Assembly (NCBI GenBank): GCA_947471505.1
Contig: CANIWM010000027.1
Location: forward strand, 1-63,035
Origin: Chthoniobacteraceae bacterium
GTDB lineage: Bacteria > Verrucomicrobiota > Verrucomicrobiia > Chthoniobacterales > Chthoniobacteraceae
DNA length: 63,035 bases
Reading direction: 5' to 3'
A model generated the notes under the pieces. The model was not told the origin of the DNA. It did not search any database and saw nothing but the letters and a program-made list of their open reading frames with translations. Positions 30,801-58,504 of the stretch are shown here, one piece after another (within the stretch, counting starts at the first letter, position 1; every line of letters begins with the position of its first letter). Position numbers and translations under genes: made by a program.

Positions 30801-33800
30801 GTTCGCCGTGGGGACGAAATCGGGGTTCCAGTTCATCGGGTTGAACCAGTTCGTATCCCCGGCGCCGCCATCCCACGAGAAGCTCACAGCGCTGCGCACG
30901 AGTTGCGCCTGCGTGGCGGTGTAGCCGACGGTGAGGAGGCTCGTGCCTTGGGTATTATTGAAAGTGCCACTGCGAGCGCCCGCCGTGATGACGTTCAGCG
31001 TATCGCCAAACGCCGGCGCATAGCCATTGATAAAGCTGACCTCCAGCAAGCCGCCGAGCGTCGCCGAGCCGCCGACGCTGAGGACATCGGACTGCCCGCC
31101 GCCCGCGCCGCCGAGTTCCGCGCTCAACGTGCCGGTGGTGCCTTGGGTGAAGTTGCCGGTGATCGTGATGGTGCCCGCCACGCCTGTGCCACCGGGCCGC
31201 ACCGTCGCACCGCTATTGTTCACATTTCCCTCGATGGTGCCCGCGCCGCGCAGTTCGCCGCCCTGGAAGTTCATCGTGTTCGGGCTGCTCAACGTGCCAC
31301 TTGCGAGCATCGTCGTTCCGCTCGTCGGCGTGTAGCTATCGAAAGCGAGCGTGCCGCTTTCTGGGCGCACGACGCCTGTAGTGATGAAGTTGACCGAGAT
31401 CGAAGCAGTGCCGGTGCCGACCGTGCGGATGAAAGTGCCCGAGTTGACGAAGTTCGAGACGCCACCCCCGAGCTGGATCATCGCAGCATTCGCGCGCGCC
31501 TCGAAGGTCGCGCCCGCCTCGTTGCTCACAAAGCCGCCGTTCTCGATCTGGAAGTTGCGCGAGCCACTCCAGATCATCGTGCCTTGGTTGATGAAGCCGT
31601 TGAAGCCGCCCGAGCCGGAGATAAATTTCAAGCCCGAGCCGCTCAAGTTCAGCGTGCCGCCCACTGCAATCGTGGGCAGGCCGACGAGGTTGCCAGCGGT
31701 CCAAGTCAGCGTATCGGTGATGGTGCTCGTCCCCGTCCAATTGCCGGAGGCGATCTCCAGCCCGCCCGCCACGATGTTGCCGGAAAGCCCGATGTTCCCG
31801 CCCGTGAAGCGCTTCGTGCCCGTGCCGGAGAAAATCGTATTCACGAAGTTCGCATCGCCGGTGAAAGTGACCGTCGCACCAGTCCCCACGTTGAAGCTGC
31901 CATTCGGCCCACCCGCCGCGCCTGTCGCGATGACGCCGGTGATTTCCATACTGCCGCTCTGCACGTTCATCGTGCCGGTGTTGGAGAAGTTCGTCGTGCC
32001 AAACGTGCTCGCCCCAGTGCCGCCCGCTTTATTGAAAGTGCCCGCGACTCCGAAAAATGAGCCGCCGCCGCCCGTGTGCGTCATCGTGGCATCGCTCGTC
32101 AGATTAAAAGTCGAGCCGACCTCATTGCTGAGGAAGCCCCCATTTTGGAAATCCAACGTGCCGGTGCTGCTGTAATTGATCGTGCCTTGGTTCACGATCC
32201 CATTGGAGCCGCCCGAACCAGAAATCAGTTTCGCCGCCGTGCCGCTGATGCTGGAACTACTGCCACCGGCGAGCGTCAGCGGGACGAGCACTGTGCCGCC
32301 AGACCAATCGTACGCGTTCAGCACCATCACCGATGAGCCGCCCGCGATGCTGCCAGTCGCTTGCTGGAAAGTGCCCACCGTCACCGACCCAGAGGGCGTG
32401 ATGGTTGCATTGATATTCAGGATCGCCGTATCCGCCGGGCCGGGCACGCCGCTGTTGAGATTCCAGTTGATCGGATTGAACCAATCGTTGCTCGCCTCGC
32501 CATCCCAAATGTAGGTGGCCGATGCCGTGGATGCGAGCACGAGCCCGCCCGCATCCGCCGCCTGCGCGAGGCCAGCAGTCGCGCCCGTGAGCGTGGCAAA
32601 TGTGCCCGGATTGTTGCCCGACTGCACCACTCGGAAGCTATTGCCTGCGCCGACCGAGAAGCCGTTGATCAGCGCGATATTCAGCGTGCCGCCGAGCGTC
32701 ACGCTATTCCCCGCTGCCGACAGCACATCGAATTGTCCGCCCCCCGTGCCGCCGAGTTCCACCTCCAGCGTACCGCCCGCGCCTTGCGTGTAGCTGCCGC
32801 TAGAAATCTGGATCGAGCCCGCCGCTCCAGTGCCACCGGGCCGGAAGATCGCGCCGGTGTTATTGATGGTGCCCTTGAAGCCGCCGGAGCCCGTCACCAC
32901 GCCACCCGCAAACGTCATCCCGCCCGCGCTCGCGATACCGCCGCCGGAGAAAATCGTTATCCCCGCGCTCTGCGTGAAAGTGTCGCTAAATTGCAGCGTG
33001 CCGCTCTGCACTTCCACGGTGCCCGCATTGGTGAAAGCCACATCGCCGTTCACTTGCGAGCCAATCTCCGTGACAGCCGTGCCGCTCACCTTTCGGAAGA
33101 CGGAGCCCACGAGATTATTAAAGGTGCTGGCTCCTCCATTGGAGCCGAGCTTGTTGTCGTTCGCAAAAAGGAACGTGCCCGCGTTGTTGATTGTCGCGCC
33201 GTTATTCAGCAACGCGCTGGCGCTGCCCGTGAAGTTCGCCGTGCCGTCGAGGTTCACCGTGCGTCCGTCGAGGACCATATTGGGGGCGTTGCTCGTGAGA
33301 TTCCACATCGCGCCCACCGGGATTTTCGTCGTGCCCGTCCCGCTCTGCGTGCCGCCGGACCAGCCGAAATCGTTGCTCGCCGTTAAGGTTCCCGCGCCAG
33401 TGAGCGTGCCCGCGCTCTGCGTGAACGTGAAGACGCTCGCATTGCCAGAAAGCGTAATCGTCACATTCGTGTTCAGGATCGCCGTGTCGCCTGCGCCGGG
33501 CACTACGTCGCCGGACCAGTTGGCCGCTGTGAACCAATCGGTGTTCCCGCCGCCGCCTGCATCCCAAGTCCGCGTCGTGGAGGTGGAGACGATGCCGGAG
33601 AACTCCGACGTATTGAAGTTACTGTTTTGCGTCGCAGTAGCCGAGATCACGCCGCCCGCTGGGATGAAGCCGTTCAGCGGAGCGGTAAAGGATGCCGTGC
33701 CCGAGCCGTTCGTAGTCACCATGAATGCGCCGAGGTAATAGCGCCCCTCGCCATTCCCGCTCGAGTCGGCGGTATTGCTGGCGTAGAAATCGAGCAGGAA

Positions 33801-36800
33801 CGTCTGGTTGGCCAGCCCGCTGTAGCTGCCGGAGATCGTCGGTGTCGTCCCGGCAGTGTAGGTCGTGAGCGTGGGGAAATTGAGCAGTCCATTTGCGCCA
33901 GAGTCCACATCGAGCGCGTCGTTTGCGGTCACGCCCGAAGTGCCGAGATCGATGCCGAGCCCGGTGTTGGAATAGATGGAGTTGAAGCGGATGGTATTGC
34001 CGCTCGCGCTGGCATCGATGACCTGAACGCCCGGACCTGCATTGAAAGCGATGATGTTCCCCGTCTCTGGCGTTCCGCCGATGATGCAGTTGTTTGAGAC
34101 GATAATTGCGATGCCCGCGCCGCCATTGCCCAAGGCTCCGACGCCGAACCCATCCGTGCCGATCCGGTTTCCTTCGATGATAGCACCATCGGAGTTTCCT
34201 GAAATGATGATGCCGCCGTTGAGGTTGCCGGAGATGACGTTGCCCTCGTTGCCGCCCGAGTTTGCCGAACCGCCCACATGGTTGCCGGTGGAGGCATTGG
34301 CCAACTCGATGCCGTAGCTTTGCAGCCCGATGGATGCTGTGCCTGCCTTGTTTGTGCCGATGAAGTTTCCTTGGATGAAGTTGTTATTGCTCGCATCCAC
34401 GAGGATGCCTTCGCCTTGAAAGGCACCCGCTAGATTCCCAGAAATGACGTTGCCTGCGCCGCCAAACGAGCCGCCGATGGTGGTCGCTGAGGAGGACACC
34501 AGCTTGATGCCGCGATCGTTGTTCGAGACCGCCGCCGTCCCGCTGGCATTCGTGCCGATGAGGTTGCCTTGAATCGTATTGCCGGTTGCCGATGCGCCGA
34601 TGATCACGATTCCCGCTTTCGCGTTGCCGGAGATCACATTGCCGGGCCCATCCCCGGAGCCGCCGATGAAGTTGCCGCCGCTCTCGACTCTCACACCATC
34701 CAGCCCATTCCCCAGCGCGGCATCGCCCGCTGCTTTGGTGCCGATGTAGTTGCCCTGAATGAAGGTCGGAGTGGACGAAGACCCCGACACATGGACGCCG
34801 TAGCCATTATTGCCGGAGATCAGATTCCTGCCTCTCGAAAGCGCCGAGCCGACGCTGATAAACGGCGCGTTTTCGATGAAGACGCCCGTCTGCGTATTCG
34901 TGGGCGCGGAGTTGCCGGTCGAGTCAGTGCCGATCCAGTTGCCGGTGATGGTGGAGCCATTGGTCGGCGTCGTCACCATGATGCCGTAATCTGCCCAGCG
35001 ATTGATGATGAAGCCGCTGATGGTGACGTTGCCCGAAGCCGCGACGAGGCCGCTTTCAAAGCCCCCGGTGCCGGGGACGTTCACGCCGCTCAGCTCGATG
35101 AGCAGCGCCGCATTGGTCCCGACTCCGAGCGTATTCACCACCGCGCCGGGCTGCGAATAAGCGTCGATCACCGTATCGCCGCCGATGCTCGGCAGCACCG
35201 TGAGTGGCGCGATGGTTTTAAGCCCGCCGCCGGGGATGTTGAATGAAATGTAGTCCAGCCCCGATTGCGCGTTCGCGTCGAGGATCGCCTGCCGCAGCGA
35301 GCCCGCGCCGGAGTCGTTCGTATTGGTGACATTGAAGCCCACCGCCGCGAGACTCACCAGCCCACCGGCATAGACGGTAGGGATCGGCGGCGAGCCGATG
35401 GTCGAGGTAAATGTGCCGCCGAGCGTGCCGCTACTCAGCACATTAAACGTGTCGCCCACTCGGACGACGAAGGTGCCCAGCAACTCGTGCTCAAGCGAGC
35501 CGTCCAAGGCCGTGTTGCCCGAGACGTTCAGCCGGTCGTGCTGCGTGCCGGGCGTCGTGCCGCCGAGGTCCACCGACAAAGACCCTGTCGAGCCCTGCGA
35601 GTAATTGCCGGTGATATTCAGCGTCCCTGCCGCACCCTTTGGCCCCACGAACACCGTCCCGCCGGAGTTCGACACATTGCCGGTGATTGTGCCGTCGCCC
35701 ACGAGTTCGCCGCCGTTCAGCGAGATCGGCCCTGTCGAAAAGATACCCCCGCCCGCCAGTTCGAGCACCCCGGAGGATTGCGTGATCCCGCCCACCACCA
35801 GCGTCCCCGCCACCGCGCGGATCGTCTCCGAGTTGCTCACATTGATCCCGCCAAAGCCGAACGACCCGCTGCCCATTTTTACGATAGTCCCCGCGTTGCT
35901 CACCGTCGCCACAGTGCCCGCGCCATCACTATCCGTCAGCCTCGCGTTCAGCGTCACCACGGCGGTCTGCGCCCCATTCACAAAGTCGCCTTGGTTAAAA
36001 TCCACACCGAGTCCGCCGACCGTCAGCGCCCCGTAGTTCTCCAGCACCCCGCCGCTCCAAATCAGCGCTGCGCCACCTACGCCAATCGTCCCCGTCCCGC
36101 CCGTGTTCAGCCGCAGCTTTCCGCCTGTGTGCGTGCCGCCGCTCCACGTCAGCGCGGCTAGCGCAGTCAGCTCGCCAGCCCCCGCGAGCGTCCCGCCCGT
36201 TTGGGTGAAGTTCGCCACCGCCGCCGGCCCCGTCAGCGAGATGAATCCGCTGGCAAACGTCACATTATCCAGCGGACTCGGAACCACCGCAGGCGACCAG
36301 TTCCCCGGCGTGAACCAATCGCTATTCGTCGCCCCCGTCCACGTATAGCTGGCCGTCGGGCCCTTCGTCGGCCCGAACTCCGAAGTCGAGCCCCCCGCCG
36401 CTGGCGTCGCCGTCGCGGTAAAAAACGAATCGGCTGGAGCGGAAAGCCCAATGTTAAAATTGAAAGTCCCCGCGCCAGATCCATTCGTCGTGACATCTTG
36501 GAAGCCTATAAAGCTGACACCTCCACCGTGGCCCGAGACATCGACCTGAGCGCGCTGGGCCAAGAAAAACTCCACGCGATACGTCGCATTCGACAGCGCA
36601 TTGAGCGCGCCCGTCAGTGTCACCGCCGAGCCCGTATTATTGAACGTCTGGATCACTGGCCAATTCGTCACTCCGTCCGAGTCCGGCGAATCATTGGGCG
36701 TGACGCCGAAAAAGTCTTCGGCTGAACCCAGGAGGTCGATCTCCAGCCCACCGTTCGAGTTGATGTTGTTGCGGTAAAATCGGTTATTTTTCCCACCACC

Positions 36801-38027
36801 GAAGTCTTGGATTCCAGCGCCCTTGTTAAACGCGATGATGTTGTCTTGGCCCGTCCCCGTTTTGCCGATGGTGTGTCCCGACGCACCTTGGAAAAACGCA
36901 ACTCCAGGCCCATCATTCGGTAATGCACTGCCCCCGGAACCTATCCCGATGAAGTTCCCCCGGACGTCAAAACTGGACGCCCCGCCGTCGCCCACCGGGC
37001 TGCCGAGCTGGATGCCGCCGGCGACGTTGCCCGAGATATAATTCCCCTCGATCAGCCCGCCCGACGCATCGTTCGTGATTCGGATTCCCGCGCCCGTATT
37101 CCCCAGTCCCGCTGTGCCCGCCGCGTTCGTGCCGATGTAGTTCCCGCGAATCTGGATGCCCGGCCCGACCGCCTGCGCGATACCCGGCCCCCCGCTCCCC
37201 GAGATGATATTGCGCCCGTTCGCTGTGTTATCGCCGATGACCGTACTAGCCGCCCCGAAGTCCGAAATGCCCGCCAGTAGATTCCCGTAAGCCGCATTCC
37301 CGGCCTTATCCAATCCGATCAAGTTTCCATAAATCTGCGTCCCCGCCGACTGCTCGTCTAGCTGCACACCATAGGCATTTCCCGTCAGCAAATTTCGCGA
37401 AGCCGCAGTCGTCCCCCCGATAATATTCCCGGCGTAAAACGGCGTCGTTCCGCTAAACGCCCCCACTCTCACCGCCGCATTTTTATTCTCGGTGGCGGCA
37501 CTCGCCACGCCCAGCGCGTTCGTCCCGATGAAGTTCCCCTCGATGTGATTGTTGTTCGACTTCAGGATGATCCCGTATCCCGACTCGTTGACGCCCGTGC
37601 CGAAGCTATTAATCGCCAGCCCCTTCACCGTGCTCCCGCCCACGCCGCCCGCTAAAACCAGCCCATTCCCCGAAGCAAGCAGCGCCCCACTCAGCTCGAC
37701 AACGACGTTCGCATTCGAGCCCACAGGCAGCGTATTCGCCGTCGCCCCCGACTGCGAATAGCCGTCAATAATCACCGCCTCCGTGACGTCCGGGAGCTGT
37801 GTGAGCGGCTGAATCTTAAACGGCCCAGTTCCGAGGTTGAAATTGATCACATCCGGCACCGCCACATTCGTGGACCCATTCGCATTGATGATCGCCTGCC
37901 GCAGCGTTCCGGGACCGGCATCCGCAACGCTCGTAACGAGGAAAGTCGCCGGAGCGATCCGAGCTTCAAGCGGTTCGATTCTGTAGTGAAAGCGGTGTCC
38001 CGTATTTGGTGTGCCTCGGATGGTCAT
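24876..38027 (-). CDS. Giant right-handed beta-helix surface protein (4383 aa) with FG-GAP propeller and shared C-terminal domain
   Basis: This is a second probable surface adhesin. The N-terminus has no hydrophobic signal helix but carries EPLEARIAPATF at about residues 18-29, matching LEGRIAPA of the other giant. A CSLREA-like opening (VADAGPGTLRQAI) leads into parallel beta-helix repeats (GNFIGTNALG, GNYIGTNAAG), and a second such block begins near residue 900. Five modules opening W-x-[GN]...[DN]WFxxxNW start near residues 559, 1486, 1837, 2379 and 2921. Each is followed by autotransporter-like strand repeats with GGTLxVELGGTxxGQxDxL endings. Seven FG-GAP repeats occupy ~3460-3955. The final ~425 residues are homologous to the other giant's end and finish FRLVEVF. 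It is divergent from the gene at 38172 and translationally coupled to the 79-aa gene downstream. Confidence 0.9.
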   Translation of the reverse strand: MTIRGTPNTGHRFHYRIEPLEARIAPATFLVTSVADAGPGTLRQAIINANGSTNVAVPDVINFNLGTGPFKIQPLTQLPDVTEAVIIDGYSQSGATANTLPVGSNANVVVELSGALLASGNGLVLAGGVGGSTVKGLAINSFGTGVNESGYGIILKSNNNHIEGNFIGTNALGVASAATENKNAAVRVGAFSGTTPFYAGNIIGGTTAASRNLLTGNAYGVQLDEQSAGTQIYGNLIGLDKAGNAAYGNLLAGISDFGAASTVIGDNTANGRNIISGSGGPGIAQAVGPGIQIRGNYIGTNAAGTAGLGNTGAGIRITNDASGGLIEGNYISGNVAGGIQLGSPVGDGGASSFDVRGNFIGIGSGGSALPNDGPGVAFFQGASGHTIGKTGTGQDNIIAFNKGAGIQDFGGGKNNRFYRNNINSNGGLEIDLLGSAEDFFGVTPNDSPDSDGVTNWPVIQTFNNTGSAVTLTGALNALSNATYRVEFFLAQRAQVDVSGHGGGVSFIGFQDVTTNGSGAGTFNFNIGLSAPADSFFTATATPAAGGSTSEFGPTKGPTASYTWTGATNSDWFTPGNWSPAVVPSPLDNVTFASGFISLTGPAAVANFTQTGGTLAGAGELTALAALTWSGGTHTGGKLRLNTGGTGTIGVGGAALIWSGGVLENYGALTVGGLGVDFNQGDFVNGAQTAVVTLNARLTDSDGAGTVATVSNAGTIVKMGSGSFGFGGINVSNSETIRAVAGTLVVGGITQSSGVLELAGGGIFSTGPISLNGGELVGDGTITGNVSNSGGTVFVGPKGAAGTLNITGNYSQGSTGSLSVDLGGTTPGTQHDRLNVSGNTALDGSLEHELLGTFVVRVGDTFNVLSSGTLGGTFTSTIGSPPIPTVYAGGLVSLAAVGFNVTNTNDSGAGSLRQAILDANAQSGLDYISFNIPGGGLKTIAPLTVLPSIGGDTVIDAYSQPGAVVNTLGVGTNAALLIELSGVNVPGTGGFESGLVAASGNVTISGFIINRWADYGIMVTTPTNGSTITGNWIGTDSTGNSAPTNTQTGVFIENAPFISVGSALSRGRNLISGNNGYGVHVSGSSSTPTFIQGNYIGTKAAGDAALGNGLDGVRVESGGNFIGGSGDGPGNVISGNAKAGIVIIGASATGNTIQGNLIGTNASGTAAVSNNDRGIKLVSSSATTIGGSFGGAGNVISGNLAGAFQGEGILVDASNNNFIQGNFIGTNKAGTASIGLQSYGIELANASTGNHVGGSANSGGNEGNVISGNLNGGIIISGNSDGAIIEGNRIGTDGFGVGALGNGGAGIAIIVSNNCIIGGTPETGNIIAFNAGPGVQVIDASASGNTIRFNSIYSNTGLGIDLGTSGVTANDALDVDSGANGLLNFPTLTTYTAGTTPTISGSYSGLANQTFLLDFYASNTADSSGNGEGRYYLGAFMVTTNGSGTASFTAPLNGFIPAGGVISATATQNSNFNTSEFSGIVSTSTTRTWDAGGGGNTDWFTAANWSGDVVPGAGDTAILNTNVTITLSGNASVFTFTQSAGTLTGAGTLTASNDFGWSGGTQSGTGTTKIPVGAMWNLTSNAPNMVLDGRTVNLDGTANFTGSASALLNNGATINNAGTFLFANDNKLGSNGGASTFNNLVGSVFRKVSGTAVTEIGSQVNGDVAFTNAGTVEVQSGTLQFSDTFTQSAGITIFSGGGIASAGGMTFAGGVVTGSGGFKGTINNTGAIFRPGGTGAAGSIQISSGSYTQGAGGTLEVELGGTGGGQFDVLSAAGNSVTLGGTLNIALINGFSVGAGNSFRVVQSGNNPGTFATLTGATAGLAQAADAGGLVLASTASATYIWDGEASNDWFNPINWNLNSGVPGPADTAILNINATITPSGSVTVGTFQQATGSIAGGSSVMVLNAYDWSGGTVLVPLTLAGGSSSSISGTAAKLISGSGGSNGIVNQGTINYSSTGTLDFQNGGFLSNEVGSTFNLTSDATMTHTGGGGSFFGVAGTFNKAGGTGASTFGTTNFSNTGTMNVQSGSMEITGVIATGAAGGPNGSFNVGTGATVTFTGDANFVNTIFSGTGTKRFTGGNIGLSGNIVAGGLEIASGNWTGTSTITDTLTWTAGNLVGLPTIAVGGTLNLSGSGLKFISGSGGFNGFINQGTMIWSGSRNFQIENGGFVSNEAGATFEARANAAMIQLGGGVSNFVNSGTFIRTVGTGTASISVNFITTGVVRPESGTLAFDSYTPTSGTTMLASGTLSSPNTMNFQGGELRGAGTIEGNVNNSGATVRPGGTGVAGTITITGNFTQGTTGTLSAELGGAGGGQSDVLSVGGSATLGGLLEVSFINGYAPAFGDTLNVITAGARSGTFNNTQGTSLLTVGYTATQAQLVRSAVSFSWDGGAGDTNWFNPMNWNPDFVPTANDNAALTINAVINLPSNASVASYSQTTGSLGGLGDLTVTGFFNWNGGQLDGGGGKLILPNGSVSGLSTGPWDLRRSVVQGGTFTVYDSTDLTFVGGLLFENSGGVVFGGSNFTIEARNAGGGTFRNLASGTLVINAPGEEMLGGTFENNGTVNLSANTSFKTTNGTSSGMWNLVSGSTFIFDHSGLATTLSGATFSGSGAVVVQGSSSLSFPIGSPTTFTSGVSFTQTNGQLVGPGSVQFAGTASFTGVALGGGVTATFTATSTLTNVNGGLSGGSALNTAGTSSFNGGFTFADGSVLTNSGALTIPNGAIADFINSSGGGSIVNASGAMFIKLPSGNNTAIQVPFANSGMVSISGQMTFTTFTQTTSGAALVLNNGVTSGNLLLNGGAFSGVGTHSTGSVTNAGATVRPGGLGARGTLHVNGYEQQSSGTLEIEIASVSDFDVLDLTGATTLGGGLSIDTVVPFLPATGNTFRVVTTAATPSGNFASFTGDVTRLSRSVDGAGVLLSSTTLTYVWDNSSTDGDWFNPLNWDLDSGTPGVADTAVVNIPTTIFLSTGVTVSAYVQSLGTINGPGQLTITDALTWSGGIIRVDVTTGAASVNTLGGGTATTLDNSLLDLGGTTTLSGSEGVNLAGNGTAELRNSGAFAFTGSAGITGTGTFHNIAGSTGVTKTVDVQVTIEATFLNGSALTVSDGFFALAGGGSWLSGISATVGATGFLSFTGGTHILAGDNQFLGAGTTRLDGGTLEVNGNGALVDAAHTFQQLSGTLSGTGDFVVNGAFIWNGGVQVGPGTTTLASTNTTAYITGSGAKTLDLRTLNVTFATGLVIDGDGQLDMMNGSQISVNGALALNAGMTINDAGGAPSSIDIFFGAAFSKLDNGTSTIGVPFSSAGTLNFSNGTVNFQGTFTQMGGTSTLSGGGIGFVTPGELRGGTLTGNGTITGSLNNTGGILNPGNGPGQLILTGDYIQSSVATLQLEITGTTAASGYDQLQVGGNASLDGSVSVFLAGFTPARGDNFRIISAGSVSGTFSTLQLPPLFEADYTAISVDLSLPFLPPGVISLGELDGTNGFLIPGLTNGSATGNSVAAIGDINGDSIGDFAIGAPNENGGATYVVFGKANGFGATLDLTTLDGTNGFTIIDSVNGGRSGFSLSGLGDVNGDGIADIFIGAPDSAVAASNAGAAYILFGKETSFTATVDLGTATGSSVLQIIGVNADDLAGFSVSNAGDINNDGASDIIIGVPFSDLNGADSGAAYVVFGAKIGAGTLPSSISLSGLDGTAGFRLVGEQANDHFGTSVSTAGDINSDGFDDILIGAPDADSVSGITGNGAAYVFLGKATGFTASTDVSTFDGKNGFKLEGLAAGEAFGSSVATAGDVNGDGVSDIIIGAANHGTGQIGVSVTGVAYVVFGKAKAYKPTFDLHLLDGSNGFRLTTAFVRSNNGISVSSAGDFNNDGFDDVVVGAPSALGDAGITYVLLGRKTGFASALDLEALTGTTGFRFVGGTADALSGTSVSGGDINGDGFDDIFIGSPQPGSESQSAGNGGAIVLYGHATRAIPVVPNTNTTAVFEDGDHDKITITVTGGKITADMLTFGADGGLQMVDLTDGGYKDGASITFSVKKKVGDGIFNVGAIDATGIKLGKVSVTGDLGQIDVGNGDPLKNAIKFLNVGSLGAMGGTTQIPGTDDPLISTIRGALPKVMVKGNVTNATLNVLGKLGSFTVGGSFTGTGAFSSSQLAGLAALGHGQIGHVSGGTTLASSGLTAGSIGKLTVKGGLTNSAISSSSSISSATINGDFTKSALVAATTTGAVKVLGKLIGDATTPSVISARGPLNPTSQAKSVAISSLTIKKDVANAEILIGYDKTFVPTNGDASIGTVTINGNWTASSLVAGIKDDTDNGFGLDDVPIPGFDATPTVFSRIASLIIKGTVTSSPSATDTYAITAQQIGKVKIGTTTIVLDKLLPDNLLIAPTDDFRLVEVF

Positions 38028-51305: not shown

Positions 51306-53354
51306 TCACTTCCAGAGCTGCTTGCGGGGGCCAAAGAGTGCCCTTTTTTCCGGCTCGAGTTGCTTCGGTGCGGGCTGCGTGAATGATGGCTGTGTGGGGG
51401 CTTCTGCAGGCTTGCCAGCTTTCTCTAGGAAGGGCTTTACGAGCGGTGGAGACTGTGTGACTTTCTCCCAGAGTTTGCGCTCGTCCACAGTGTCTTCGTA
51501 GATGACGCCGAGCTGGTCGAGCACGGTGCCGGTGGCCAGCCAAAGCTCGGTGATGGCTTTGTTCAGCGCGGCTTGGTAGCGGAGTTCCTGCGACCTCGCG
51601 ACGTAGAGGCGGCGTTGCTGGTCAATCAGCTCAAAGCTGGAAAGCTGCCCGGCTTCCATGCGGACGAGGCCGACGTGGACGAGTTCCTTCGCCGCTTCGC
51701 TCGTCGCTTTCCCGGCGGCGAGTGCTTGGTGGGCGTTGCGGATGTTGAAGATGGAGCGTTGCACGGAGAGGCCGATTTCCAGCTCGGATTGCTTGATGCG
51801 CGTGATGGCCTGCACCTTGCGCGCTTTGGCCGCCTCGATCTGTGCGCGGCCTTGGATGCCGCCGAGTGGGACGGAGCCGTTGATCCCGAGCGACCATGCG
51901 GGCGAGTCGCCCTCCAAGAGGCGGTCGGTGGCGTCGCTAAACGTCCTGTCCAAGCCCGAGTAGCCGTAGCTGCCGACGACATCGAGCTGCGGCCACGCTT
52001 GGTTCTTCGCAAACTTCAGCCGCACATCTTCGCTCTCGGCAGAAATGAGCAGGGCTTTGTAGTCGGTCCTTTTCGAGAACGCGAGGCGGAGCAAGTCTGC
52101 TTCATCGAGCTTCGGGACGACGAGCGGCGGGATCATCTCAGGCAGGAAGACGCGAATGTCGCCCGCTTGAAACTCGGGTAAAATCTGCCGCTTCAGCAAA
52201 ATCTGGCGGTCGAGGAGGAAGGATTTCGCACCGTAGAGCGTGGCGCGATCATCTTGGAGCTGCACCTGCGCTTGGCCGACTTCATACGGCGAGAAAAAGC
52301 CGAGTTGCTCGCGCCGTTGGCTGAATGCGAGGAGCCTCAAACCGGCGTTGATCGCGTCGCCTTTGTTCTCCAAATCACCGAACGCCTGCACCATGTCGTA
52401 GTAGTTCGCGACGACGCCTTGCAGGGCGACTTCGATGCGGAATTTCCACGTGAGTTCCTGCGCCGCACGGTTCTTCTGCGAGATGCGGATATCGGCCATA
52501 CTCGCATTCAGCCCGCCGTCTTTCAGCAAGGGCTGGCGGAACTCTAGCGTGGCGCTGGCACCGTAGGTCGGGAGCACATCGCGGGTGTCGCCGACAAACG
52601 AAAGGCGCGTCTTATTTCCACGGACAGTGACACCGAAAATCGTCCCGAGTGGAGTCCGCGCGCGGATGCCCGCTTCGGCATTATCCACGTCCTGTGTGAA
52701 CGTGACGATGTTACTGGAAAACGTCGGCGGGACGATTGGAGCCGCGAACTGCGGCTGGAAGTTCAGCCGAGGCAAATTGAAGTTCAGCACGCCTTGCTGG
52801 GAGATGGCTTGGATGCGCCCGTCTATCTCGGCGAGGAAGTTGGCGACGCCTTGCTGGGTGGAGTTAAACGCCGCGATGCCGCCATTCACGACCTGTGTAG
52901 CAAGCGCGACATCTTGCAAACGGAGGAGCGAATCGGCGTTGCGGATGTTATCCGTAGCGTCGGGCGTCTTGAGCCGCTGGCGCTGTGCGCTGAAACTGAA
53001 CACGGGATCGAATTCGCCGTACGCGTTTTTCACACGGGCGTTCTCAATCGCGATGCCGATCTCTTCGATCTTCGCATCAAGGTTGTTCTTCAGCGCGGAC
53101 TGAATGGCCTGCTGGAGCGTGATGACTTCGATCTTCGTGCCTTTGCCAAAGTAGTCCGACGCGGAGGGTTTCTCCGGCGGCTTTTCGGTCATGGGTATTG
53201 GCGGCGGGACGGGAGCATCCGCAGGCACGGGCGCGTCAATTTGCAGCGCGAGAAGCGGCGGCGTGGCGCGAAGCTCGGGTGCGGGTTCGTCGGCAGCGAA
53301 AAGGGCGGGCGCTGCGATAGAGATGAGTGGAATACACCAACGGCGGAGAAGCAT
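51306..53354 (-). CDS. TolC-family outer-membrane efflux channel (682 aa)
   Basis: This is the outer-membrane exit duct of the four-gene export operon. The signal peptide ends PALFA|ADEP. A proline-rich linker (~residues 40-65) precedes the first TolC repeat (VITLQQAIQSALKNNLDAKI, then IENARVKNAYGEFDPVFSFS). Long coiled-coil helices recur, and the second repeat reads ADLLRLAFSKRTDYKALLIS...VRLKFAKNQAWPQLDVVGSY. At 682 aa it is longer than E. coli TolC; the excess lies in the N-terminal linker and in loops with FNSTQQGV and PRLNFQPQFAAP. It is translationally coupled: its ATG overlaps the TGA of the M50-HlyD gene by one base. It probably pairs with the adaptors encoded upstream. Confidence 0.92.
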   Translation of the reverse strand: MLLRRWCIPLISIAAPALFAADEPAPELRATPPLLALQIDAPVPADAPVPPPIPMTEKPPEKPSASDYFGKGTKIEVITLQQAIQSALKNNLDAKIEEIGIAIENARVKNAYGEFDPVFSFSAQRQRLKTPDATDNIRNADSLLRLQDVALATQVVNGGIAAFNSTQQGVANFLAEIDGRIQAISQQGVLNFNLPRLNFQPQFAAPIVPPTFSSNIVTFTQDVDNAEAGIRARTPLGTIFGVTVRGNKTRLSFVGDTRDVLPTYGASATLEFRQPLLKDGGLNASMADIRISQKNRAAQELTWKFRIEVALQGVVANYYDMVQAFGDLENKGDAINAGLRLLAFSQRREQLGFFSPYEVGQAQVQLQDDRATLYGAKSFLLDRQILLKRQILPEFQAGDIRVFLPEMIPPLVVPKLDEADLLRLAFSKRTDYKALLISAESEDVRLKFAKNQAWPQLDVVGSYGYSGLDRTFSDATDRLLEGDSPAWSLGINGSVPLGGIQGRAQIEAAKARKVQAITRIKQSELEIGLSVQRSIFNIRNAHQALAAGKATSEAAKELVHVGLVRMEAGQLSSFELIDQQRRLYVARSQELRYQAALNKAITELWLATGTVLDQLGVIYEDTVDERKLWEKVTQSPPLVKPFLEKAGKPAEAPTQPSFTQPAPKQLEPEKRALFGPRKQLWK

Positions 53355-55573
53355 CAGAAGCGGTAGTCGAGGCTAATTAAGTCCACCATCCACTGCAAAA
53401 CGATCTTCCCAAAAGGGCGTTTGCCGGTCTCGATTTTTGCGCGCGTGGTCATGCCGTAGCGCAGCAGGTTATCGGGGTTTTGGACTTCGACGGTGACGAC
53501 ATAAGTGTGCTCCAGCAGCTTCTCGCGGCCCGTGCCATCGGGCACAGTCGGCACATCGCCGCCGCGTTGCTTGCTGAAAGCGAGGGGGAAATTGTGCTCA
53601 TCGAGCTGGGTCGGGTCGCTCTTCACGACGCCCTCAAACTTCCGCCCTGGAAACGAATCCGCCAGCAGCGTGACGCGATGACCGGCGCGGACTTCGCGGA
53701 CTTCCTGCTCGTTGAGCGGGATTTTGATCTGCATCGGGTCGAGCTGCGCGAGTTCACAAAAAGTGTCGTTGGGCGGACGAAGAAGCTGGCCCACCCGCGA
53801 CGCGAGGTCGCGGTTGAGGACGACGCCCGCAGTCTTCGCTCGGAGGGTGAGCTGCTCGACATCGCGGCGCGCTTTTTCCAGCCGGGCCTTGGCTCCGTCG
53901 CGCAGGGCCTCGATCTGTTTCATCTCGCCAGGGCGCTCGACGCCGAGTGCGGCGCGGATGCGGAGTTCGTAGTCTTGGAGCGCGATTTCCTGCTGGGCAA
54001 GTTCTTGATGAAGGTCCCGATTTTCCAGCTCGGCGATGATTTGACCGGCCTCTACGCGGTCTCCTTCTTTCACGAAGACGCGCTTGATGAAGCCGATAGT
54101 TTCAGGCCGGATGATCTCGGGATTTGCAACTTCGACAGCGCTGTGGCGCAGCACCTCCGTCGTCACGGGCACGAAGCAATAGGCGCCGAATGCAAGCAGC
54201 GGGATGCCAAATACTTTGGCGATGCGCCACCAGCGCCCGCCGGATTTTGTGTCTTCTTTAGTCAAATGGAGTTGTTGCACGAAATGCCACAGTGGCACGA
54301 CGACCCAGCCCGTCAAAGCAAGGAAAGCGAACCAATCAGAAAGTCCCTCCAATCCAAGCGGCTGGAGATGCGGCTCCATGAAGGCAATGAGCTTGTAAAT
54401 GACGTAGTAGCCGTAAATCCACGAGAGCACCGCGTAGCTGTAAAAGAGCCAGAGCCGTTTTTTTGGCATCGGCATCCGCGAGAGCATGTCGCCCTTGCTC
54501 GATGCGCCGAAGAGCAAGCTCGTGACTTTGTTTTGCACGAGCGCGCGGCTTTTCTGCTGCAAGTTGGGCGTCTCGATGGCGTCAATCATGATGTAGTAGC
54601 CGTCGAATCGCATGAGGGGATTCGCGTTAAAAATGAGCGTGCTGACGCTGGCGATGACGATGATATTGAAGAGGAAATCTTTGAACCACCCCGGCTGAAC
54701 GACAGCCCACAGGAACGTGGCGAAGGCTGCAAACACAAGCTCCACGTAGATGCCCGCAAAGGAAACAAGCATCCGGTGCCGACGGTCCGGCATCGTCCAA
54801 GCATCGGAGACGTTCACGAAAAAGTAGGGCGTGAAGACCATACTCATAAAGCCGATCTCGTGGACCTCGCCGCCGAAGTGCTTACACGTCATCCCGTGGC
54901 CGAGTTCGTGGACACTTTTCAGTACGATGGTGGTCACCCACATCAGCGCGAGGTTGTTCCAGTTGAAGAGATTCGCCAGCGCGTGATCGAGCCCCTCTGC
55001 GCTATAAAGGAAGACGGTAGCGCCCAGCGCGATGATGGCCCACGACACCCAAAAGGTCGTCTTCGTCCAAATCCAGCCGACCGATTTCGCCATACGGCCA
55101 AAGAGCACATCCGGGTCGTACATCGAGCGGCGGAAGAAGAAGATGTTGTTCGCCAGTGCGTAGAGTCCGCCCTTTTTTTTCTTCTGCTTCTTTGCCGCAT
55201 CCATGCGCGCCTTCGTGCGCTGGCCTTGAATGGCTAGGAACTGGAGCAGCGCGAGGTCATTGGCAAATTTCAGCACGCGCTCATTGAGTTCCTCCGGCGT
55301 GTATTCGAGTCGCAGGTGCGGATGCGAACGCACCCAGCCGTCGCGGATCGCGCCAAAGGTGCGCTTGCCGTCGAATAGGATCGCGAGGTCGTAGTCCTCG
55401 GCAGTGAGGCGGAAATACTGGAGCGAGATCGGGTCTTTTACGACGTAGTAGCTGCGGCCCTCAAACAGTTGCTTGCTGATGACCAAGTCGGCACGGAGTT
55501 GCGGCAGGACGACGTTTTCCTGCTGCGGCGCGGGCTTGGTCAGCTCTGTTTCTTTGACGGCGACTGCGGCCAT
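53354..55573 (-). CDS. M50 site-2-protease-like membrane protein fused to an HlyD adaptor (739 aa)
   Basis: Residues ~30-120 form a PqqD-like winged-helix region (YFRLTAEDYDLAILFDGKRT). A transmembrane core follows with the zinc-protease motif HELGH at 223-227 and the second metal motif NPLMRFDG around Asp325. Further membrane helices run to ~465. Then comes an HlyD/biotinyl-lipoyl adaptor (RPETIGFIKRVFVKEGDRVEAGQ), a coiled-coil segment, and a beta-barrel (LDPMQIKIPLNEQEVREVRAG). The known family is 'putative peptide zinc metalloprotease/HlyD' proteins of environmental bacteria. Its predicted role is processing and/or passing a substrate across the inner membrane to TolC. Its start abuts the stop of the HlyD gene upstream (TAA then ATG). 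No ATPase domain is present. Confidence 0.88.
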   Translation of the reverse strand: MAAVAVKETELTKPAPQQENVVLPQLRADLVISKQLFEGRSYYVVKDPISLQYFRLTAEDYDLAILFDGKRTFGAIRDGWVRSHPHLRLEYTPEELNERVLKFANDLALLQFLAIQGQRTKARMDAAKKQKKKKGGLYALANNIFFFRRSMYDPDVLFGRMAKSVGWIWTKTTFWVSWAIIALGATVFLYSAEGLDHALANLFNWNNLALMWVTTIVLKSVHELGHGMTCKHFGGEVHEIGFMSMVFTPYFFVNVSDAWTMPDRRHRMLVSFAGIYVELVFAAFATFLWAVVQPGWFKDFLFNIIVIASVSTLIFNANPLMRFDGYYIMIDAIETPNLQQKSRALVQNKVTSLLFGASSKGDMLSRMPMPKKRLWLFYSYAVLSWIYGYYVIYKLIAFMEPHLQPLGLEGLSDWFAFLALTGWVVVPLWHFVQQLHLTKEDTKSGGRWWRIAKVFGIPLLAFGAYCFVPVTTEVLRHSAVEVANPEIIRPETIGFIKRVFVKEGDRVEAGQIIAELENRDLHQELAQQEIALQDYELRIRAALGVERPGEMKQIEALRDGAKARLEKARRDVEQLTLRAKTAGVVLNRDLASRVGQLLRPPNDTFCELAQLDPMQIKIPLNEQEVREVRAGHRVTLLADSFPGRKFEGVVKSDPTQLDEHNFPLAFSKQRGGDVPTVPDGTGREKLLEHTYVVTVEVQNPDNLLRYGMTTRAKIETGKRPFGKIVLQWMVDLISLDYRF

Positions 55574-56338
55574 TTAGTCCTTTTCCTCCCACGCCTCCGC
55601 TATGCCCTTCATCCCGGCTTTGATTTTGTGGTCCTTGTTTTCGATCTTCACTTTCACTCGGACGGTGCCGCTGCCTGCATCGTTGCGCGGGTCCACAAAG
55701 CTGACCTTCCCCTCAAACTGTGCGTTATCGAGTTCCGTGATCTTGATCTGGATGACTTGCCCTTCCTGCACGGTTTGACGGAACTTCGCACTGAGCGGAA
55801 AAGTCACGTCCACAGTGTCTATATCAATGATCTGGAGCAGCGGCGACTGCTGCGTCGCCATCTCGCCGGTCTGTTTGTATTTCTTCACCACGATGCCGTT
55901 GATCGGGGAGTGAATGGTCTTTTCCTCCAGCGCAAGCTTCTTGGCCTCCATCTGGATCTTGGAAAGCTCAAGGTCCGTCCGCGCCTCGAGCGCTTTCTCC
56001 TCGCTGCCCATCTTTTCATTGAAGAGCCGCTCATGCCCGCGTGCGATAAACTGCTTTAACTCAATGGCTTTCTCCGAGATGCGCACGTCCATCTTCTCGC
56101 GGTCGTTGCGGAGTTGGACGATCACTTGGTCCTTAGTCACCTTCGCGCCCTCATCCACGAGCATGTCCTTGATAATCTCCATCGGCACGGTGGAGCTGAC
56201 TTCTACAGTCGCGTTTGGATTTACGATGCCAGACGGAATCCTGCGTTCTTTTTTAGCGACGCTCGCTGGCTCGGCGAGCAGCAGGGAGGTGGACAGAATT
56301 ACGGCTGTAAAAACGGAGCTGATTTTCATGAAAAGCAT
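55574..56338 (-). CDS. Periplasmic HlyD/RND-type adaptor protein (254 aa)
   Basis: This is a membrane-fusion adaptor. The N-terminal signal is KISSVFTAVILSTSLLLA. VEVSSTVPMEIIKDMLVDEG is the first lipoyl half, a coiled-coil hairpin follows (residues ~95-150, RISEKAIELKQFIARGHERL), and HSPINGIVVKKYKQTGEM is the second lipoyl half. The beta-barrel region reads VTFPLSAKFRQTVQEGQVIQ. At 254 aa it is short for an RND adaptor (350-400 aa) and lacks a long membrane-proximal domain. It lies between GAF-HlyD (9-bp gap) and M50-HlyD (abutting), so the operon encodes three adaptor modules. An internal ATG three codons in (MKISS) is an alternative start. Confidence 0.88.
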   Translation of the reverse strand: MLFMKISSVFTAVILSTSLLLAEPASVAKKERRIPSGIVNPNATVEVSSTVPMEIIKDMLVDEGAKVTKDQVIVQLRNDREKMDVRISEKAIELKQFIARGHERLFNEKMGSEEKALEARTDLELSKIQMEAKKLALEEKTIHSPINGIVVKKYKQTGEMATQQSPLLQIIDIDTVDVTFPLSAKFRQTVQEGQVIQIKITELDNAQFEGKVSFVDPRNDAGSGTVRVKVKIENKDHKIKAGMKGIAEAWEEKD

Positions 56339-56347
56339 AGTGGCGAC

Positions 56348-58504
56348 TTACCAAATCCACTTCAGCCGAACCCACTGCGTAATGTTTCGCGCCCAGATGA
56401 GTGCGAGCGGCTTGCGGCCTAGATGGATGCTCGCACGGCCTGTGAGTTCGGGTCGCATCGCGCCACGGATTTGCTCGGGCAATTCCACCTCGGGCAGCGT
56501 GAGGATGAAGGCGTTTTCCTTCATCGCGCTCTCGCGCTCGTGCGGGTAGGCGAGTTGGCTGAGCTGGCTCCTGTCCTTAAACGGCGCGGAAATCTGGTAT
56601 GTGTTGAAGCTGTATAAAATGAAGTTCACCGGCACCGTCGCTTTTTCCGTGTGGATGGCTTCGACCTTCCCGATTTGTTTTTCGTTCAAATGGACGAGCA
56701 TGTCCCACGAGTCCATCGTCCCAACCGTCGCAAACTCCGTTCCCGCTTCCATGAACACGCCTTTCCTTAACTCGATGTCCTTGGTCAAAATCACCCCGTC
56801 CATCGGGCTGAGCAACGTCGCCGCCGCGATGTCGGCGAGCAGTTTCGCCTCTTGAATCCCGTATGCTTCCGCACGTTTCTCGGCGATTTGCCCCTCGGCT
56901 TCGTGGCCGTTGGCGCGCTGGTTTTGCGCTTCGAGTGATGCGCTCAGTTTCTGTTTGCGCACGCCTTCCAGCTCGGACTCGGCGATGTGCGTATCAATTT
57001 TCCCGAGCTTCTGCCCTGCCTTCACACGGTCGCCTTCTTTGACGAAAATCTGCTCCACGCGCCCACGCACTTCGGGCACGACTTGGACGCGCTTATGCGG
57101 CACCAGCGTGCAATCGCTCTCCACTTCCTCCATCCACGGGAAGAGGAGGATGCCGCCGATAATGACCAGCCAAGCGCCGAGCTTGAAGGTATTCCACCGC
57201 CGTTCGCTTCCCGTCAGCGCGCGCTTCGCCTCGCGCAGACGCTTCGCTGCGAAGAGCCCGGGCAAATCCTGATAGTCCATCGCTCCACGCATCGCACGAC
57301 CTGTATTCGTCCCCAGCCATTCGCCAAGACGGTGGCTTGGCGGGAGCTGCTTCGCTCCCGGCTGCATGTCATACGCCGCGTCCACCGTGCTCTCCGCCAG
57401 CAGCGCGCCGATCACGTTTTTGTCCGCATCCAAAATCTGCACGATCAGCGCCGCCGCAACCTGGCTGTTTTCAAAATACGCGGTGTCCGCAATCTCCGTC
57501 GGCCCACGCGGATGAACCACCAGCGCGCGCTCCGGCGCAGGCACCGTCCCCGGTTCGGCCAGCTCCAACAGCTCCTTGCGACTCAGCGCGATCACCCACG
57601 GGCCGAGCTGTGCAGGCTGTCCCTCGGGCACGACGACGGGCATCGGCTCGCGCGGCGTGTGGGCATCTACGAAGGCCGTCATCGTCTTCACCATCGTGCT
57701 CCTTCGCTCCACGACTTCCTGCCCGGAAATCGCCATCATCTCCCAGCCCGTCCCGCGCAACCGCAGCACCGCGCAGCGCTCGCTGCCGAGCAAGTCGCGC
57801 GCATAATTCACCGCCAACCGCGAAATTTCCAGCGGGTCCAGCGAGCCCGCAAGATCTGTGGAAAACTTCAGCAGATGCTGCAAACGCTGCGTCTCCACGA
57901 CGAGATTGCCCACCTGCCGCGACTGGAGATGCGTCTCCACATGCGCCGCAAGCTGGGTGAGGAAAGTCGCGAACTCGGCGTAATTCTCCCGAGCCACATA
58001 CGGCTGGAGCCACACTTGCAGGACCCCGAGAATCTGCTCCTTCAAAAAGAGCGGGACATGGACAAAAGGATACGGCGTCTTGTTCGGCGAAGGCTGCTGC
58101 GACTGCTGCGACTGCCCGCCCATCTGCGAGAGTTGCGACTGGAGCGAGCCCGGCTTTTGCGCATCCTCCGCTCGCGATTCTGCGGAAAGGACGAGCGGCT
58201 TTTTTGTCTGCACGACCTCTCCGACCGCCCGAAGGAGCACTCCGCGCTGCTGCTCGTCGGACTGGAAAAGCGACGAAGCAATCTCCACCTCGGCGGCCAA
58301 TTGAAGCTCATTCTTCCCATCTGCCGTCTTCTGACCCACCAGCCAGATCGCGCCCCCTTTTCCATCGCACGCGGCCACGGCACGCTGAAGAAATTGCGCG
58401 TAAAACTCTTCTGACCGCATCTCCGACTTAGCGAGAGCGGAAATCTCATCTACCAAGCGCTGAATCCGCGCCCTTGCTGCTTCAATACTTTGCTGTTGGG
58501 ACAT
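56348..58504 (-). CDS. GAF-GAF-HlyD membrane fusion protein (718 aa)
   Basis: First gene of the export operon. Residues ~10-190 and ~210-390 look like two cytoplasmic GAF sensor domains (FLQRAVAACDGKGGAIWLVG and LAVNYARDLLGSERCAVLRL openings), separated by a Gln/Ser-rich linker. A single transmembrane helix (AWLVIIGGILLFPWM, ~residue 450) precedes an HlyD adaptor: HKRVQVVPEVRGRVEQIFVK, a coiled coil (ESELEGVRKQKLSASLEAQN), and SPMDGVILTKDIELRKGVFM. The fusion would let a cytoplasmic signal gate a periplasmic adaptor. I use the ATG of MSQQQSIEAARARI; an in-frame ATG 15 codons earlier (58549) exists but adds a non-family leader. It is divergent from the amidohydrolase, 133 bp away. Confidence 0.86.
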   Translation of the reverse strand: MSQQQSIEAARARIQRLVDEISALAKSEMRSEEFYAQFLQRAVAACDGKGGAIWLVGQKTADGKNELQLAAEVEIASSLFQSDEQQRGVLLRAVGEVVQTKKPLVLSAESRAEDAQKPGSLQSQLSQMGGQSQQSQQPSPNKTPYPFVHVPLFLKEQILGVLQVWLQPYVARENYAEFATFLTQLAAHVETHLQSRQVGNLVVETQRLQHLLKFSTDLAGSLDPLEISRLAVNYARDLLGSERCAVLRLRGTGWEMMAISGQEVVERRSTMVKTMTAFVDAHTPREPMPVVVPEGQPAQLGPWVIALSRKELLELAEPGTVPAPERALVVHPRGPTEIADTAYFENSQVAAALIVQILDADKNVIGALLAESTVDAAYDMQPGAKQLPPSHRLGEWLGTNTGRAMRGAMDYQDLPGLFAAKRLREAKRALTGSERRWNTFKLGAWLVIIGGILLFPWMEEVESDCTLVPHKRVQVVPEVRGRVEQIFVKEGDRVKAGQKLGKIDTHIAESELEGVRKQKLSASLEAQNQRANGHEAEGQIAEKRAEAYGIQEAKLLADIAAATLLSPMDGVILTKDIELRKGVFMEAGTEFATVGTMDSWDMLVHLNEKQIGKVEAIHTEKATVPVNFILYSFNTYQISAPFKDRSQLSQLAYPHERESAMKENAFILTLPEVELPEQIRGAMRPELTGRASIHLGRKPLALIWARNITQWVRLKWIW

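Follow-up and report, generated by a model that had tools for sequence, protein, structure and literature searches.

The window, the whole stretch of 63,035 nucleotides analyzed here from a member of the Chthoniobacteraceae, carries on its minus strand, running from 58504 to 51306, an operon of four open reading frames (ORFs). These encode, in order, a GAF-GAF protein with one transmembrane (TM) helix and an HlyD domain (GAF-HlyD), an HlyD protein with a signal peptide, a fusion of an M50 protease to an HlyD domain (M50-HlyD), and a TolC-family protein (Table 1). The gene junctions measure 9, 0, and -1 bp, and the Pfam domains of all four genes score above their cut-offs, including Peptidase_M50 at 29.1 bits (cut-off 27.2). 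Three HlyD-family adaptors and a TolC-family channel constitute the adaptor and channel set of a type I secretion system (T1SS) or a tripartite efflux system, and no ABC, RND, or MFS pump gene is found in the operon by Pfam and NCBIfam annotation. The ORFs and Pfam matches thereby confirm the sequence-only reading made earlier of this DNA, which had described four genes on one strand with these junctions and no pump.

From its domain order, the gene 1 protein would appear to join a cytoplasmic sensor or regulator to an adaptor. The neighbors of the operon are metabolic or regulatory, comprising the glycolate oxidase GlcF, an amidohydrolase, and a LacI-type regulator, and a promoter scan gave a result at chance level. 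Also near the operon, on the plus strand at 60742-62439, lies a gene for a 565-residue protein with a Walker A-like motif, which is present as well in the closest relative, G146 (locus L044).

Table 1. Coordinates of the operon genes, of the parts of the gene 3 protein, and of the two leader-bearing giants in the window
Feature	Position	Strand	Evidence
Gene 1: GAF-GAF, one TM helix, periplasmic HlyD/biotin-lipoyl adaptor, 718 aa	56348..58504	-	Pfam GAF, GAF_2, HlyD_D23, HlyD_3; ATG at 58504; kept in family loci
Gene 2: short HlyD adaptor, hydrophobic signal peptide, 254 aa	55574..56338	-	HlyD_D23 9e-21, RND_mfp 6e-36; N-terminal hydropathy 2.16
Gene 3: RRE (PqqD-like) + M50/site-2 protease + HlyD fusion, 739 aa	53354..55573	-	Pfam M50 and HlyD_D23; AlphaFold pLDDT 85.8; folds TbiB1, RseP, MacA/MexA
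Gene 3, residues 22-115: predicted RRE/PqqD-like leader-binding fold	55229..55510	-	Model pLDDT ~95 (residues 21-110); structure and profile matches
Gene 3, residues 222-226: HELGH (HExxH) zinc-protease motif	54896..54910	-	H222, E223, H226 invariant in both alignments
Gene 3, residues 318-325: NPLMRFDG, second M50 motif (NPxxxxDG)	54599..54622	-	P319, D324, G325 invariant in both alignments
Gene 3, residues 457-726: HlyD/MacA-like adaptor domain	53396..54205	-	MacA Z 17.6, MexA Z 16.1
Gene 4: TolC-family outer-membrane channel, 682 aa	51306..53354	-	OEP 8.9e-33; type_I_sec_TolC 7e-15
Probable substrate 1: 4383-aa FG-GAP/beta-helix protein, leader RIEPLEARIAPA	24876..38027	-	Motif 37948-37970; Pfam FG-GAP x7
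Probable substrate 2: 5741-aa protein, leader PEALEGRIAPA	143..17368	-	Motif 17331-17353; alternative starts at least 6 residues upstream

Predicted folds and conservation of the M50-HlyD protein

The whole M50 protein and its N-terminus alone were modeled with AlphaFold, and each model was compared with the PDB. The top matches of the N-terminal domain are two RRE proteins in complex with their leaders, TbiB1 and TfuB1 (Z 10.7-10.3, rmsd 2.4-2.9, 84-87 residues aligned), with values of Z 10.7, rmsd 2.9, and 87 aligned residues for 5v1v and of Z 10.3 for 6jx3; PqqD (5sxy) follows at Z 8.0. The Foldseek E-values of these RRE matches are moderate (0.01), and in a profile search the best sequence relatives of the domain are TfuB1 (E 0.009) and PqqD (E 0.056). 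In its predicted structure the domain adopts a three-stranded fold of the winged-helix type, like the leader-bound RREs. The PqqD-like domain of the sequence-only reading is thus borne out by structure, as an RRE fold, in a part of the protein that is without a match in Pfam or NCBIfam. Because this domain is modeled as an RRE, the likely role of the gene 3 protein is recognition of a leader peptide, beyond cleavage alone.

The RRE domain is followed by a membrane domain whose residues 203-336 match an orthologue of RseP (7w6y, Z 10.2) and which carries HExxH and NPxxxxDG within its membrane helices, as an M50/site-2 protease does; proteolysis itself is a prediction. Both motifs are conserved without exception in 27 of 27 homologues and in a second alignment, of 45 sequences, and the invariance of H222, E223, H226, P319, D324, and G325 indicates that the zinc-protease motifs are under selection. 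Residues R27 and K46 of the RRE domain are likewise invariant. Absence of HELGH conservation, which the sequence-only reading had named as evidence that would count against it, is therefore not what the homologues display. Together, the matches to TbiB1/TfuB1, RseP, and MacA/MexA give the order RRE, site-2 protease, adaptor for the gene 3 protein. The model contains about seven membrane helices, an odd number, which would leave the RRE on the cytoplasmic side of the membrane and the adaptor in the periplasm.

M50-HlyD homologues are present in 25 of the 147 genomes of the order (E 1e-20). The clade that includes the protein of the window comprises 10 genomes, all within the family, with identities of 51-100% and a single origin with full support. 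The gene order GAF-HlyD, HlyD, M50-HlyD, TolC, whose conservation the sequence-only reading had proposed to check in other genomes, is intact in nine of these 10, a degree of conservation beyond coincidence; in the tenth, G104, GAF-HlyD is on another contig. Across the phylum, 81 of 387 genomes contain a relative of M50-HlyD, and a wider scan of contigs yielded at least 563 confirmed relatives, the best 80 of which are mostly from planctomycetes. A search of viral contigs gave no relative.

No conserved pump lies beside these relatives: ABC-type motifs are found in three of 55 loci and an RND-like gene in none, so that the second finding that would have told against the sequence-only reading, an ABC or RND pump always adjacent in related genomes, does not occur. 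An ABC ATPase beside the operon of G060 was considered as a pump and rejected, since it is on the opposite strand and absent from the loci of other relatives. These results bear on the simplest account of the operon, an ordinary tripartite drug or metal efflux system, or a type I system, with its pump elsewhere and the M50 domain as a degenerate membrane anchor. The HlyD and TolC parts are indeed typical, and TolC and pumps are often unlinked. The invariant protease motifs and the rarity of pump genes in related loci nevertheless argue against this account, which also leaves three adaptors, one of them with an RRE, unexplained, and we regard it as highly improbable.

The LExRIAPA leader and its co-occurrence with the operon

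Large proteins encoded beside distant M50-HlyD relatives begin with ...VLEPRIAPA, ...EVLESRIAPA, and similar sequences. Searched as a DNA pattern, LExRIAPA has 22 sites in the genome of the window, two of these within the 63-kb window itself, compared with none in shuffles of the window. All 22 lie 5-45 residues from the start codon of an open frame, with start codons inferred from the ORF calls of the present analysis. A glutamate at position -2 is found in 22 of 22 leaders though it was outside the search pattern, in which L, E, and R were specified. The leader consensus, [I/P]-E-x-L-E-x-R-I-A-P-A, is a new type of N-terminal sequence without a hydrophobic segment; the maximum 12-residue mean hydropathy is 0.88, whereas the signal peptides of HlyD and TolC in the operon reach 2.16. 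The leader proteins measure 413-5741 residues, three being truncated by the ends of contigs or of the stretch, and repeats of the FG-GAP, Calx-beta, beta-helix, and autotransporter types occur in those tested. These large proteins, including both giants of the window, are the probable substrates of the operon.

The size of the leader proteins also argues against maturation and export of a small peptide, in which the RRE and M50 domains would process a short leader peptide, as in the daptide and YydH/LiaK pathways, and HlyD and TolC would export the product. The RRE fold fits such a ribosomally synthesized peptide (RiPP) pathway, and the M50 domain matches models that, by their names, describe M50 cores in leader-peptide pathways. 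Those matches, however, are far under the family cut-offs, both for the daptide protease NF041824 (168.7 bits, cut-off 300) and for YydH/LiaK (cut-off 225), and the M50 domain of the window differs in being fused to HlyD. No RiPP-type gene was found by Pfam or NCBIfam among the neighbors tested, in a search of annotated families and not of short precursor ORFs. Similar to the RREs of the RiPP enzymes TbiB1, TfuB1, and PqqD, the N-terminal domain of the gene 3 protein has a fold for which leader recognition is proposed, but it is fused to a protease-adaptor and its proposed partners are giant proteins rather than small peptides. We therefore consider a RiPP system very unlikely.

Leader and candidate exporter co-occur across genomes. 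At least two LExRIAPA sites, and up to 25, are found in 14 of the 147 genomes of the order. M50-HlyD is present in 13 of these 14 and in 12 of the other 133 (Fisher p 5e-11), and within the family the window-type operon is present in nine of 10 leader genomes and one of 19 non-leader genomes (p 1e-5), values that overstate independence because the genomes are related. The partner gene families tried against the leader were M50-HlyD and SecA only. Of the three kinds of co-occurring gene to which the sequence-only reading had pointed, LExRIAPA genes thus proved the key hint; RiPP-type genes are missing from the annotated neighbors, and ABC genes are not conserved. The leader genomes outside the family (G024, G068, G080, and G118) each have an M50-HlyD, and two genomes with a SecA-type exporter only, G120 of the same genus and G032 of the same family, have no LExRIAPA site. 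In the rest of the phylum sample (387 genomes), LExRIAPA never exceeds two sites per genome and most matches are not N-terminal; G328 combines a single N-terminal LEPRIAPA protein with the closest M50-HlyD outside the order.

The correspondence is not complete. G005, of the same genus and 96% complete, encodes 20 leader proteins, yet M50-HlyD (by profile search) and GAF-HlyD are absent from its assembly, which makes this genome either a case of an assembly gap or a counter-example. Conversely, G139 has the operon and one LExRIAPA site, and M50-HlyD of some kind is present in 12 genomes of the order in which at most one site is found. Individual loci display the association directly: in G072 (L052) an FG-GAP protein with LESRIAPA is encoded 94 bp upstream of the operon, and in L057 two giants are encoded 75 bp downstream of M50-HlyD.

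Leaders and SecA genes beside related candidate exporters

Large proteins around the exporters of planctomycetes and other Verrucomicrobiota begin with related sequences, such as ERLEDRRLLA, ETLEPRDLLA, and EYLETRTLLA. The pattern ExLExRx[LMVA][LPM][ASTD] occurs within the first 80 residues of 12 of 436 flanking genes (at least 200 aa), where shuffles predict 0.005, and nowhere in the remaining 169,760 residues; the motif is therefore real and N-terminal. An N-terminal export signal of planctomycetes, RRLxxExLExRxLLA, has been described (Studholme 2004; Pfam PF07595; PMC8567305). In the planctomycete T. immobilis, 52 genes carry a form of it, 20 of the products were detected, eight of these 20 in the SDS-soluble fraction only, and the signal is on eight of the 10 longest proteins, with no mention of HlyD, SecA, or M50 (PMC8567305). 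Because the signal is this common in planctomycete genomes, adjacency on its own argues less strongly for a functional link there. Operon linkage is the stronger evidence: the leader-protein gene shares 4 bp with the HlyD gene in L133 and follows it by about 24 bp in L342, 68 bp in L134, and 139 bp in L337. In these four loci, which belong to one exporter clade, the leader protein directly after the HlyD gene has 427-509 residues and may be a core component or the primary substrate.

Like the planctomycete signal, the leader of the window has ExLExR as its core and stands at the N-terminal end of very large proteins of surface type; this core is common to 22 of 22 leader proteins of the genome. 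The two differ in their ends, IAPA here and xLLA in planctomycetes; PF07595 (Planc_extracel) has no match above the Pfam cut-off in the genome of the window, and the planctomycete signal had no exporter assigned to it. Over the 387 genomes of the phylum, PF07595 has one match, in G476, where M50-HlyD lies about 10 kb away, and LE[DE]RRLL[AT] is found in nine of 16 genomes examined, all exporter-holding.

These linkages weigh on a further alternative, that the leader is served by another, undetected machine inherited in the same genomes while the operon exports something else. The relatedness of the genomes, the two partner families tried, and the leaders of G005 without an operon would all fit it. 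Against it, several separate clades of M50-HlyD have leader genes next to genes of the exporter or overlapping them, the predicted RRE is a ready leader receptor, and G120, though of the same genus, has neither the window-type operon nor leaders. We judge this alternative unlikely, and the proposed link between leader and exporter well supported by the predicted domain folds, the protease motifs, the gene order, the leader itself, co-occurrence, and adjacency.

A locus of this type has been described by Kamneva, Poudel and Ward (2015; PMC4452313), who found, in Planctomycetes, Verrucomicrobia, and others, genes for M50-HlyD, HlyD, and GAF-HlyD adjoining that of a secondary SecA_DEAD ATPase. 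The M50 protein was proposed as a stand-in for the membrane part of an ABC transporter and SecA_DEAD as the candidate motor; the substrate was not named. As in that locus, in which OEP is sometimes also present, the genes lie side by side here without an ABC transporter. The clade of the window differs in that SecA is not adjacent and mostly has no secondary copy genome-wide, in that TolC is within the operon, and in that neither an RRE domain nor LExRIAPA or ExLExRxLLA substrates were described for the earlier locus.

The operon could accordingly be a SecA-dependent system of the same kind, energized by a secondary SecA-like ATPase encoded elsewhere. The genome of the window does encode one secondary SecA_DEAD of 623 residues, beside an HlyD gene on contig C55 (L334:7263-9846) and not at the operon, and in the relatives G032, G120, and G146 a SecA gene is directly beside an M50-HlyD gene. 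However, a second SecA was not found in seven of the 10 operon genomes (G060, G083, G088, G139, G124, G015, and G072), which have canonical SecA only, and the occurrence of secondary SecA is not tied to that of the leader, the protein being present in three of 10 leader genomes and two of 19 others in the family. The clade of the window is, moreover, a single one without SecA-adjacent members in the tree, in which SecA adjacency is scattered, requiring at least seven changes for 10 rows. We find a dependence on secondary SecA quite improbable for the operon of the window. SecA is nearby in seven of 55 well-covered loci from other genomes, and the motor in related loci may be a SecA-like ATPase that pushes the chain. 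The genome of the window also contains a second, distant GAF-HlyD/M50-HlyD pair (C44:3240-7168, L043), which together with the SecA_DEAD of C55 is probably a split or separate SecA-type exporter.

Giants beside SecA-type exporters begin with EDRILCSA (L062, L069) or LEPRVLLSA (L336). In L336 (9716-16000), a protein of more than 2000 residues that begins LEALEPRVLLSA is encoded directly downstream of the secondary SecA gene, and this LEPR-XLL type of start may be a further dialect of the leader. EDRILxSA was rejected as a genome-wide dialect in the order, having only scattered single matches beyond G120 and G032. In L137 (16793-20968) and L156 (13663-17853), SecA-type exporters have leader proteins nearby that are subtilases carrying cadherin, Big_9, and dockerin domains.

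Proposed export route and relation to described systems

We consider it likely that the products of the four genes form an exporter that spans the envelope and specifically serves large surface proteins bearing the short, non-hydrophobic leader. The leader of a substrate in the cytoplasm would be captured by the RRE on the cytoplasmic N-terminus of M50-HlyD, probably binding as an added β-strand, as in RiPP RRE-leader complexes. The site-2 protease membrane domain, in the place of an ABC or RND pump, would act as the entry gate, as the protease that releases the leader, or as both. The three adaptors, namely the M50-fused HlyD, the free HlyD, and GAF-HlyD, would build a conduit through the periplasm that leads to TolC, the GAF domains would gate the complex from its cytoplasmic side, and the substrate would exit to the cell surface. 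Cleavage of the leader and energization of export are putative steps; in the clade of the window, the motor would have to be canonical SecA, an unlinked motor, or folding of the substrate outside the cell.

Similar to type I secretion by HlyBD-TolC, this route comprises HlyD-family adaptors, a TolC-family channel, and large substrates. The differences are that there is no ABC transporter, that the leader is N-terminal, and that an RRE-site-2 protease fusion occupies the place of the pump. That the M50 protein replaces the pump, as the sequence-only reading had supposed, fits the missing pump and the anatomy of the operon, and had already been proposed by Kamneva et al.; of the substrates it offered (a peptide, a lipopeptide, or a large adhesin), the large adhesin-like one agrees with the giant leader proteins. 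Its description of the system as under-described holds for the RRE and the leader substrates and not for the type of locus, which is that of PMC4452313. The individual components were known before. New here are the RRE as a candidate receptor, LExRIAPA as a leader dialect, a clade that is SecA-free, and the evidence, both statistical and from operon structure, that connects the leader with the exporter. A signal of 2004 without a machine and a T1SS-like locus of 2015 without a substrate are hereby joined; no paper that joins them was found in the open-access literature, which the search covered.

More tentatively, and with slightly less than even confidence, the system is proposed as a distinct class of secretion, guided by an RRE and gated by a site-2 protease without an ABC, RND, or dedicated SecA motor, that reads ExLExR leaders and, in Verrucomicrobiota and Planctomycetota, carries giants across both membranes, with a dialect (IAPA, xLLA, or ILCSA) for each exporter clade. 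The link between leader and exporter, if correct, would by itself explain how PVC proteins of up to thousands of residues are delivered to the surface, would give the RRE, a domain of natural-product enzymes, a role in protein secretion, and would make surface proteomes predictable from a short motif.

Several of the leader proteins also resemble one another at the C-terminus, ending in a strand such as FRIVEVI, FRLVEVF, or LRIKEIAI among those at 143-17368 and 24876-38027 and in L226 and L231, a possible second, C-terminal element.
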